This document shows positions 28,223 to 30,896 of a DNA stretch of 32,870 nt, in pieces; position 1 is the first letter of the stretch; each line of letters opens with the position of its first letter. This DNA comes from Actinobacteria bacterium HGW-Actinobacteria-6 (lineage in GTDB: Bacteria; Actinomycetota; Coriobacteriia; Anaerosomatales; Anaerosomataceae): assembly GCA_002841295.1 (NCBI GenBank), contig PHEU01000025.1, positions 1-32,870 on the forward strand, given 5' to 3'. Under the pieces are notes generated by a model that had not been told where the DNA came from, ran no database searches, and was given only the letters and a program-made list of their open reading frames with translations. Both the position numbers and the translations under genes were made by a program.

Positions 28223-29026
28223 CTACGCCTCCAGCAGCACCACTGCGTCGACGAAAAGCTCGTAATCGTTGTCCTCGTCCAGGTCGTGGATGCGCACCTT
28301 CTCGACCTCACCCTCGCCGAGCACCGAAAGCAGCCGTGCCTGGTAGAGCACCTTCACGTCCGAGCGCTTGATCTCTCCCGAGAGATCCTCGGGAAGCCCG
28401 AGCGTGTCGAGCTCGGTCAGGAACACCACACGCGGCGTCACCTTCGTGAGCTCAAGCGCCAGCTTCGCCGAGGCGGGCCCGCGATCGAGCACGAGCGTGC
28501 GCTTCTCGGAAAGGTCGTTGATATCGTCTACCTGCCTGAACAGTCCCTTGCCGAGATAGTCATCGGCGTTCGCAATCACGGTTACCGCCGGGACCGCGCA
28601 ACCGGAGCCGACACCCGCGACCTCCTCGGCGGTGAGCGGGTTGAGCTTCTTGCCGGAGCGCCAGTTCTTGATGGCATCGTGCAGCGCGTCAGCCGCCAGG
28701 TTGGAACAGTGCATCTTCACCGGCGGCAGCCCATCAAGCGCATCGGCAACGTTGCCGCGCGTCACGCCAAGCGCCTCGTCGAGCGTCATGCCCTTCACGA
28801 GCTCGGTCGTCATCGAGGAAGTCGCCACCGCCGAGCCGCATCCGAACGTCTGGAAGCGAATATCGGCGATGCGGTCATCGACGACTTGGATGTACATCTC
28901 CATGAGGTCGCCGCAAACCGGGTTGCCCACGCGCCCGATCGCGACGTCGTCGCCCTCGAGCGTGCCAACGTTGCGCGGGTTGCGGAAATGATCGAGCGTC
29001 TTCTCGGAATACTGGGTGGATTTCAT
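28223..29026 (-). CDS. iscU: IscU-type Fe-S scaffold fused to a degenerate thioredoxin-reductase-like domain
   Basis: 267 aa, ATG at 29026 with AGGAG 7 bases upstream, overlapping the preceding stop. Residues 1-125 are a complete IscU: NPRNVG, GNPVCGD (Cys38, Asp40), FGCGSA (Cys63) and MHCSNLA (Cys107), i.e. all three cluster ligands and the Asp. A further Cys143 (GSGCAVP) lies in the linker. From about 158 the sequence follows the NADPH domain of thioredoxin reductase: GKGLF, KRTLVLDRGPASAKLALELTK, RVVFLTELDTL, VKVLYQARLLSVLGEGEVEKVRIHDLD, ELFVDAVVLLEA. However, the CxxC is absent, GGG is DRG, and the NADPH-binding HRR is TEL, so the domain is probably structural or regulatory. IscU builds clusters with its desulfurase partner, encoded directly upstream. 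Confidence 0.9.
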   Translation of the reverse strand: MKSTQYSEKTLDHFRNPRNVGTLEGDDVAIGRVGNPVCGDLMEMYIQVVDDRIADIRFQTFGCGSAVATSSMTTELVKGMTLDEALGVTRGNVADALDGLPPVKMHCSNLAADALHDAIKNWRSGKKLNPLTAEEVAGVGSGCAVPAVTVIANADDYLGKGLFRQVDDINDLSEKRTLVLDRGPASAKLALELTKVTPRVVFLTELDTLGLPEDLSGEIKRSDVKVLYQARLLSVLGEGEVEKVRIHDLDEDNDYELFVDAVVLLEA

Positions 29027-29036
29027 AGGGAGTCTC

Positions 29037-30203
29037 CTAGTCCGTCTTGTACAGCGGCGACATGCGGCGCAGCCTGAGCACGATACCCGGCAGCACCTCC
29101 ATCACGCGGTCGATCTCGCTGTCCTGGCTGAAGCGCCCGAAGGTGAATTCGAGCGAACCGTGCGCTTCCTCGTGGAGAAGTCCGCACGAAATGAGCGTGT
29201 GACTCGGCTCAAGCGTCTTGCTCGAGCATGCCGAGCCGGTTGAAACCGCGATGCCCTCGTCGCGCATTGAGAGCAAGAGCGACTCGCCTTCGATGCCCTC
29301 GAAGCGGAAATGCGCGTTGTTGGGGAGCCGCCCGGTCGGGTGTCCGTTCAGGTGCGAGTCCGGGATCGTCGAAAGCACTGCCGAGACCAGCCTGTCGCGC
29401 ATCGCAGCGATTCGCGGGACCTCGGTCGCCATCTCGGCGGCAGCGATATCGGCCGCCTCGGCCATTCCGACGATGAGCGCGAGTGGTTCGGTGCCCGATC
29501 GAAGCCCGCGCTCCTGCCCGCCGCCCATCATGATCGGGCCGAGCTTCACGCCTTTGCGGATGTAGAGCGCGCCGAGACCGGGGGGTCCGTAGATGTCGTT
29601 GCTCGAGAGCGAGAGCAAGTCGACAGGCACCGCGCGCATGTCGATCGGCAGCAGGCCTTCGGCCGCCACCGCGTCCACGTGCAGCGCGACGCCGGTGCCT
29701 TTGAGCATCTCGGCAATCTCGGCGATGGGCTGCACGGTGCCGATTTCGTTGCTCGCCCAGCCTACCGAGACCAGGATCGTGTCGTCGGTGATGCGCGCGC
29801 GCAGCTTGGCGGGGTTGATGCGACCGAACTGGTCCGGCGGCACCTTGCTCACGCGGAAGCCCGCCTTCTCCAGGTACTTCCCGATGTTGAGCATCGAGAT
29901 GTGATCCACTTCCGAAATGATGATGTGGTCGCCCGCGCGTTTGTTGCGGTTCGCATAGCCGATGAGCGCGAGGTTGTTCGACTCGGTCGCTCCTGAAGTG
30001 AAGATCACCTCGTCGGGCTCGGCGCCGATGAATGCCGCTACCCGCGCGCGGCTCGCTTCGAGCGCCTCGGTCGCGCGGTCGCCCACGCTGTGCAGCGATG
30101 CGGCGTTGCCGAAGCTCTCGGTGAAGTACGGCAGCATCGCCTCGACGACCCGCGGGTCGACGGGCTTTGCCGACTGGTAGTCTAGGTAGACCTCTTCAGG
30201 CAT
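29037..30203 (-). CDS. iscS: IscS/NifS-like cysteine desulfurase homologue lacking the PLP-binding lysine
   Basis: 388 aa, ATG at 30203 with AGGTGG 6 bases upstream. The overall fold and motifs are IscS-like: YLDYQSAKP, FTSGATESNNLAL, SEVDHISML (His101), ASNEIGTVQ, HVDAVAAEG (Asp177), GGGQERGLRSGT, and the mobile-loop cysteine in STGSACSSKT (Cys326). The PLP Schiff-base motif, usually SAHKIYGPKG, reads SSNDIYGPPG here: the lysine position is Asp203, encoded by GAC at 29597-29595. The PLP-stacking Gln is Ala180. The same Lys to Asp change is known in Archaeoglobus fulgidus IscS, which still binds IscU and whose Cys contacts the cluster but which lacks desulfurase activity. It is likely a scaffold or persulfide acceptor, not a normal desulfurase. 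Confidence 0.93.
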   Translation of the reverse strand: MPEEVYLDYQSAKPVDPRVVEAMLPYFTESFGNAASLHSVGDRATEALEASRARVAAFIGAEPDEVIFTSGATESNNLALIGYANRNKRAGDHIIISEVDHISMLNIGKYLEKAGFRVSKVPPDQFGRINPAKLRARITDDTILVSVGWASNEIGTVQPIAEIAEMLKGTGVALHVDAVAAEGLLPIDMRAVPVDLLSLSSNDIYGPPGLGALYIRKGVKLGPIMMGGGQERGLRSGTEPLALIVGMAEAADIAAAEMATEVPRIAAMRDRLVSAVLSTIPDSHLNGHPTGRLPNNAHFRFEGIEGESLLLSMRDEGIAVSTGSACSSKTLEPSHTLISCGLLHEEAHGSLEFTFGRFSQDSEIDRVMEVLPGIVLRLRRMSPLYKTD

Positions 30204-30213
30204 CGCACACCAC

Positions 30214-30576
30214 CTAGAACCACATGGTGGCGCCGGCATCAAGCGCAAGGTCGTTCAGCGTCGCGGCGCCAACGATCTTCACGCCGTCGATGAGTTCAAC
30301 ACTCTCCCAGCCGAGCATCTGTTTGGACGCCTCGCACACCAGTACGGGGATACCCATGTCGATCGTCTTGCGCAGCATCTCGGCCACCGTCGGGAACGAC
30401 CCAGCCTTCATCTCCTCGGCCACACCCGGCTTCAGAACCTTGAGTCCCATGCCGAGGTAGTAAACCGTCGGGTTCAGGTTCATTGCCTTCGCGGTCTGCG
30501 CGAGAACGAGCGGCGAATACTGTCGCATTGGATCATCTGTCGTCTGTACGTAAAGGATCGCGTTCTCGTCTTTCAT
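30214..30576 (-). CDS. DsrE/DsrF-like sulfur relay protein
   Basis: 120 aa from the ATG at 30576 (AGGAGG 6 bases upstream); a longer in-frame extension overlaps tusA and lacks a site. This is a DsrE-fold protein: AILYVQTTDDPMRQYSPLVLAQTAKAMNLNPTVYYLGMGLKVLK, then FPTVAEMLRKTIDMGIPVLVCEASKQMLGW with Cys81 at the conserved persulfide position. The end, IVGAATLNDLALDAGATMWF, fits this family. Members carry sulfane sulfur between TusA and downstream acceptors in DsrEFH/TusBCD or related relays. It is cytosolic. It lies between tusA and the lysine-less IscS gene in one operon. Confidence 0.88.
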   Translation of the reverse strand: MKDENAILYVQTTDDPMRQYSPLVLAQTAKAMNLNPTVYYLGMGLKVLKPGVAEEMKAGSFPTVAEMLRKTIDMGIPVLVCEASKQMLGWESVELIDGVKIVGAATLNDLALDAGATMWF

Positions 30577-30586
30577 GATCGGCCTC

Positions 30587-30829
30587 CTACTCGCCCTTGC
30601 GGATAAGGAATCGCTTATGGTCGCCCAGGTCCTCGACGGACACGACCTCGTGCCCGGCCCGCTTCGCAAAGCGGGTGAGGTCCTCCTCGGCAGCGGGATC
30701 GTCGGCGAAGACCTCAAGGACCCCGCCAACCTCTATCTCATCCATCCCCGCGCGTGTCTGGAAGAGCGGCTCCGGACAATACAGCCCGATGCAGTCCAGC
30801 GTCTCGGAGACAGGATCGGTGTGACTCAT
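30587..30829 (-). CDS. tusA: TusA-family sulfur carrier
   Basis: 80 aa, ATG at 30829 with GAGGTG upstream. The signature of TusA/SirA proteins is complete: LDCIGLYCPEPLFQTR, with the CPxP motif Cys18 (active persulfide cysteine) and Cys13 nearby. The rest is the two-layer alpha/beta fold: GGVLEVFADDPAAEEDLTRFAKRAGHEVVSV. TusA takes a persulfide from a desulfurase or sulfurtransferase and passes it on. Here it opens the tusA-dsrE-iscS-iscU operon, whose promoter lies over a perfect palindrome. Confidence 0.92.
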   Translation of the reverse strand: MSHTDPVSETLDCIGLYCPEPLFQTRAGMDEIEVGGVLEVFADDPAAEEDLTRFAKRAGHEVVSVEDLGDHKRFLIRKGE

Positions 30830-30869: not shown

Positions 30870-30896
30870 GTATTCCCACTTGTATAGTGGGAATAC
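30870..30896. promoter_or_regulatory. Perfect 11-bp-arm palindrome in divergent gap (operator)
   Basis: Arms GTATTCCCACT (30870-30880) and AGTGGGAATAC (30886-30896) are perfectly complementary around a 5-base TGTAT centre, giving a 27-bp operator candidate. It lies 41 bases before the tusA start and 73 bases before the lipoprotein start. TATAGT (30883-30888, plus) and TATACA (minus) -10-like boxes lie inside it, so one repressor could control both directions. The dyad type fits a dimeric or tetrameric regulator of sulfur or metal responses; no regulator gene is adjacent. Confidence 0.7.

Follow-up and report, generated by a model that had tools for sequence, protein, structure and literature searches.

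The IscS protein of Archaeoglobus fulgidus has served as a structural model for iron-sulfur cluster assembly despite its missing catalytic lysine. Lysine-less IscS itself is already known: the A. fulgidus protein was reported, in work cited in PMC7585200, to be without desulfurase activity and to give a cysteine ligand to the cluster on IscU, and Methanosarcina acetivorans IscS1, also reported without the catalytic lysine, has been suggested to act like it (PMC7585200). In E. coli, TusA receives sulfur from IscS (PMC2854127). How sulfur is obtained for Fe-S clusters without a cysteine desulfurase in anaerobic archaea and bacteria is an open question, one that has been posed for M. jannaschii (PMC12192291).

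The window, by which we mean the whole 32,870-nucleotide stretch of DNA analysed, carries on its minus strand a gene for a lysine-less IscS homologue (29037..30203), here iscS(Asp), whose reading frame translates without interruption from 30203 to 29037 into 388 amino acids. The product belongs to the fold-type I, aminotransferase class V family (Pfam Aminotran_5, PF00266, 245.6 bits); among proteins of solved structure it is closest to A. fulgidus IscS (4eb5; about 55% identical, 464 bits), with E. coli IscS (1p3w) scoring lower at 340 bits. Alignment with these two references places Asp203 in the column of the PLP lysine, Ala180 in that of the PLP-contacting Gln and Asn202 in that of the His preceding the lysine, with the catalytic mobile-loop cysteine intact as Cys326 and with His101, Asp177 and Ser200 retained. 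The preliminary description was thus right in assigning Asp203, Ala180 and Cys326, and no other lysine falls in the PLP position in the alignment that it had proposed as a check. A substitute lysine elsewhere in the PLP pocket was considered and rejected, none being conserved. The Schiff-base lysine expected of a catalytic IscS or NifS is accordingly absent and the mobile-loop cysteine present, and the protein falls under the NCBIfam equivalog cut-offs for both IscS (398.5 vs 643.2 bits) and NifS (459.3 vs 530.75 bits). With Asp, Asn and Ala at these positions and the loop cysteine kept, iscS(Asp) is of the A. fulgidus lysine-less type. Chance or sequencing error behind Asp203 is ruled out by congeners bearing SSND[IL]YGP at that position and by the occurrence of the Asp substitution in more than 110 loci of other species.

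The gene is the third of four on the minus strand, tusA, dsrE, iscS(Asp) and iscU, which are separated by gaps of about 10 bp and carry ribosome-binding-like sequences. The tusA gene (30587..30829; Pfam TusA, 79 bits) encodes a sulfur carrier with a TusA domain and a CPxP motif containing Cys18, and dsrE (30214..30576, ATG at 30576; Pfam DrsE_2 and DsrE above cut-off) encodes a 120-aa DsrE/DsrF-like carrier whose single cysteine lies within VCEASK. The iscU gene spans 29026 to 28223; its N-terminal scaffold domain (28652..29026; Pfam NifU_N, 151 bits) has the three cysteines and one aspartate of an IscU (Cys38, Asp40, Cys63 and Cys107) and a fold that matches IscU structures. Its C-terminal module (28223..28579, boundary approximate) is, by comparison with flavoproteins, a degenerate NAD(P)H lobe resembling that of thioredoxin reductase and ferredoxin-NADP reductase, without an FAD lobe, a CxxC or an intact glycine motif. 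A perfect 11-5-11 inverted repeat (30870..30896), approximately 41 bp upstream of the tusA ATG, is a possible operator and the sole copy in the genome even when 2 mismatches are allowed; as a conserved operator it was rejected, since it was found neither in congeners, searched with a related pattern, nor in more distant relatives.

To place this gene among its relatives, the DNA pattern S-x-D-[ILVMF]-Y-G-P-x-G-x-G-A was run over 84,980 species genomes, yielding at least 118 stretches; among the matches listed, lysine-less IscS accounts for at least 114 sequences, counting that of the window. Asp at the PLP lysine is fixed by the pattern itself, and positions 180, 202 and 326 were left free. 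Among these same matches, Asn202 is found in 113 of 114 Asp-type sequences, Gln never occurs at 180, and the Cys326 column is Cys in all 108 sequences with data; in a larger set the loop cysteine is present in 120 of 121, the single exception being a gap. The hosts among the matches listed are archaea (Bathyarchaeota, Lokiarchaeota and other Asgard groups, Methanosarcinales/ANME, Thermoplasmatota) and bacteria (Rokubacteria, Thermodesulfobacteriota, Actinomycetota, Bacillota and others), almost all of them metagenome-assembled genomes (MAGs) whose individual taxon labels need caution. In a tree built without the active-site columns, 120 of 120 Asp-types lie on one side of a branch with support of 0.95-0.99, and their clade has an SH-aLRT support of 100 in a mixture-model tree computed from a thinned set; in both trees A. 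fulgidus IscS falls inside this clade together with the window sequence. The Asp-type family is large and ancient, has a single-clade origin and extends over many archaeal and bacterial phyla. The likeness to A. fulgidus IscS drawn earlier therefore holds as common descent, but the bacterial occurrence that it remarked on is not exceptional, being shared by MAGs of Rokubacteria, Thermodesulfobacteriota, Bacillota, Actinomycetota and other bacteria. Six further sequences from Actinomycetota MAGs and one euryarchaeotal sequence group with the window IscS, the wider set around them also including Lokiarchaeota, a bathyarchaeon and a Stahlbacteria MAG, and this mixed grouping suggests that the gene has moved between domains.

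The link to TusA and DsrE that had been pointed out for the window holds there and proves to be a rule across the clade, not a local accident, once neighbours are tabulated. Among the matches listed, TusA lies upstream in 83 of the 95 Asp-type loci with 700 bp of upstream flank (it was not found in the remaining 12) and DsrE in 48 of these 95, while IscU lies downstream in 65 of the 93 loci with 500 bp of downstream flank. The CPxP cysteine of TusA (Cys18) is found in 84/84 aligned cassette homologues, the VCEASK cysteine of DsrE in 51/51, and the three Cys and one Asp ligands of IscU in 68-69 of 69-70, again among the matches listed. The sulfur-bearing cysteines along the TusA-DsrE-IscS-IscU chain are practically invariant.

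The cassette varies in its extent. A Geoglobus MAG carries tusA-iscS(Asp)-iscU, and in Lokiarchaea a fusion of a CoA-disulfide-reductase-like protein, a rhodanese and TusA comes after the cassette. In Rokubacteria (L046, L049, L053, L056 and other loci) tusA-iscS(Asp) stands without an iscU next to it, and position 180 is Gly; in four Thermoplasmata loci (L072, L082, L119, L134) the place of iscU after the cassette is taken by genes for an 800-aa macroglobulin-like protein and a UDP-glucose/GDP-mannose dehydrogenase. ANME/Methanosarcinales and Asgard MAGs (L062, L105, L123, L139, L154) encode IscU as a fusion with a complete thioredoxin-reductase-like flavoprotein that lacks CxxC, possibly a built-in electron supply for persulfide reduction; compared with the whole flavoprotein in L062, L105 and L123, what is left in the window IscU is the NAD(P)H lobe alone, its glycine motif degraded. 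In a Sifarchaeum MAG (L135:1584-3170, minus strand), a LAGLIDADG intein (Pfam Intein_splicing, LAGLIDADG_3) interrupts the cassette IscU at its ligand Cys38.

Lysine loss also occurs outside the Asp clade. A second lysine-less group, from Actinomycetota, has QHQ, ANQ, ADL, ADM or ADG at residues 180/202/203 and is nested among Lys types with 99-100 support; TusA, mostly with DsrE and IscU as well, lies downstream of it, in a gene order unlike that of the Asp clade. TusA also adjoins a third lysine-less case, L197 (LHL), and L256 (HHT) has the order TusA-DsrE-IscS-IscU. When flanks of about 1 kb are considered, TusA accompanies 72/83 Asp-types, 25/33 other lysine-less types and 2/49 Lys types, and DsrE accompanies 46/83, 25/33 and 0/49, respectively. 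No TusA was found within such flanks for the LKR, YHR, SHR, HYT and AAT lysine-less types, nor near several lysine-less lineages of the G339 phylum. An independent-pairs test of TusA against lysine loss yielded 5 pairs, too few to reach significance, so the association, though its counts are strong and it recurs in separate lineages, is suggestive and not proven against phylogeny. Lysine-less IscS beside TusA and DsrE appears to have arisen more than once. The sisters of L197, namely L246, L247 and L248 (LHK), have lost the Gln, retain the Lys and adjoin TusA, and look like an intermediate step toward Lys loss. Among the LKR, SHR, YHR, HYT and AAT types (L259, L262, L263, L264, L266, L267, L274), several have the stacking His replaced too, and the loop cysteine is kept.

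The conserved chain of carrier cysteines beside iscS(Asp) suggests that persulfide enters via TusA and DsrE, and the account we modestly favor makes the lysine-less IscS the middle carrier of a persulfide relay running from TusA/DsrE through Cys326 to IscU. Sulfane sulfur would be loaded onto TusA Cys18, probably with the involvement of DsrE, and handed to Cys326 on the mobile loop; the lysine-less IscS would then dock IscU and deliver the sulfur to it, with Cys326 possibly serving as a transient cluster ligand too, as in A. fulgidus. Because the lysine is missing, no internal aldimine could form, and iscS(Asp) would carry out no cysteine desulfuration. The direction of flow from TusA towards IscS, the place of DsrE and the want of desulfurase activity are our inferences from the genes and their order, and the ultimate source would be sulfide, polysulfide or another persulfide. 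Since E. coli TusA takes sulfur from IscS, TusA could instead be on the receiving side in this operon; residues W45/E49/D52/D65, which contact TusA in E. coli, do not separate Asp- from Lys-types. The Asp-type loci and other lysine-less lineages without TusA, and the Rokubacteria loci without a neighbouring iscU, also speak against the relay. The preliminary description had foreseen a persulfide-acceptor or cluster-holding role and a source of sulfur that is not cysteine. Common descent with A. fulgidus IscS and the clade-wide operon link support that role in part, and chemistry that does without a Schiff base could still be at work.

It is also conceivable, if unlikely, that iscS(Asp) is only a docking platform that contributes the fourth ligand to the IscU cluster, with sulfur arriving as free sulfide and TusA and DsrE serving another purpose or acting as downstream acceptors. 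An IscS cysteine is indeed bound to the [2Fe-2S] cluster in the A. fulgidus IscS-IscU structure, as described in PMC7585200 and PMC9769115, and no desulfurase is needed for the SMS system to use sulfide (PMC12192291). What such a platform leaves unexplained is why TusA and DsrE, with their invariant cysteines, are so tightly linked to lysine-less IscS and hardly ever to the Lys type.

The state of the cofactor pocket raises a further alternative. All Asp-types (121/121) keep the PLP-stacking His, the Thr of the phosphate site and the pyridine Asp, and across the clade the four pocket residues His, Asp, Thr and Ser vary little if at all; Asp- and Lys-types are told apart best by columns 72, 76, 103, 180, 202 and 203, of which 180, 202 and 203 are direct PLP contacts. 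These changes look like remodelling and not decay. Since the pocket residues are kept, a non-covalently bound cofactor is plausible, and PLP or PMP might be held without a covalent lysine in a pocket, remodelled at A180, N202 and D203, that acts on a sulfur compound in another way or more slowly; PLP is marked in the A. fulgidus protein by a figure legend for 4EB5. We nevertheless judge such an enzyme quite improbable: A. fulgidus IscS was reported, in the work cited above, to be inactive as a desulfurase, and the independent lysine-less lines place the unrelated residues L, M, Q, T and R at the site, which argues against one new chemistry.

The relay must also be set against what else the hosts encode. 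The window host genome (2.35 Mb, 69 contigs, 95% complete) has a complete canonical iscR-iscS(Lys)-iscU set on another contig (C39), and a Lys-type gene with the strict motif is present in at least 23 of 50 surveyed Asp-type hosts. In such cells iscS(Asp) might be an accessory pseudoenzyme of the canonical system, taking persulfide from the Lys-type IscS or competing with it so as to buffer or redirect sulfur. We hold this to be less probable still, as the cassette brings its own IscU and, in about 14 of the 50 hosts (all counted from MAGs), the Asp-type is the only type-I homologue: four, one of them a Geoglobus, have no other desulfurase homologue at E 1e-15, and in about 10 further hosts the remaining homologue is type II only. 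Judging by these hosts, a canonical IscS is probably dispensable for the cassette, though MAG incompleteness weakens this support.

The gene is under purifying selection, with a dN/dS of 0.16-0.29 against order-level relatives, and the order relatives of the Asp type with a readable motif all carry SSND. It is conserved within its genus (4/5 genomes) and patchy beyond (7/34 genomes in other families of the order). The second desulfurase that had been anticipated as part of an alternative explanation does exist, but its other half, that iscS(Asp) is a pseudogene or decaying duplicate left by the loss of a catalytic residue beside an apparently intact paralogue, is refuted by the intact frame, a dN/dS of 0.07-0.12 against congeners and membership in one ancient clade with fixed substitutions.

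Returning to the relay, these data suggest that cells may build iron-sulfur clusters with sulfur delivered by carriers rather than derived from cysteine. The relay offers a testable direction of flow, and the second lysine-less lineage is a natural replicate. We extend it only tentatively, with rather more doubt than confidence, to a widespread desulfurase-independent mode of Fe-S assembly, conserved in archaeal and bacterial phyla, in which TusA and DsrE would feed inorganic sulfane sulfur via lysine-less IscS to IscU, the pairing of lysine-less IscS with TusA and DsrE having evolved repeatedly. No description of the tusA-dsrE-iscS(Asp)-iscU cassette or of repeated lysine loss was found in the literature searched, which covered few subscription journals, so that a prior description is possible.

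Among known systems, sulfur trafficking by DsrE/DsrEFH and TusA shares Pfam families and conserved carrier cysteines with the window operon, which differs in that its DsrE stands alone, genes for DsrF/H and for dissimilatory sulfite reductase are missing from it, and the carriers are coupled to an Fe-S scaffold. The minimal ISC system (MIS, MisS-MisU) has the same two-protein IscS-IscU core but is described with a cysteine desulfurase plus scaffold, whereas the window operon has the scaffold without the desulfurase lysine and adds operonic sulfur carriers. The proteins are homologous to those of the E. coli hub, where IscS binds TusA and IscU at different sites (PMC2854127); there IscS makes persulfide from cysteine and TusA is the acceptor, while in the window the lysine is lost and TusA is the proposed donor. 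M. acetivorans IscS1 is set beside iscS(Asp) by description only, the text of PMC7585200 mentioning neither TusA nor DsrE. The closest match is A. fulgidus IscS (PDB 4EB5, 4HVK; in 4R5F a Lys replaces the Asp), which shares the Asp, Ala and Asn residues, the kept loop cysteine, an IscU partner and the same clade. The window differs in the extra flavoprotein-derived C-terminal lobe of its IscU and in a bacterial host that has a canonical ISC set besides. Its operon also includes TusA and DsrE; linkage to TusA is seen in a Geoglobus relative as well. A. fulgidus IscS now stands within a large clade whose conserved operon names TusA and DsrE as candidate sulfur donors.
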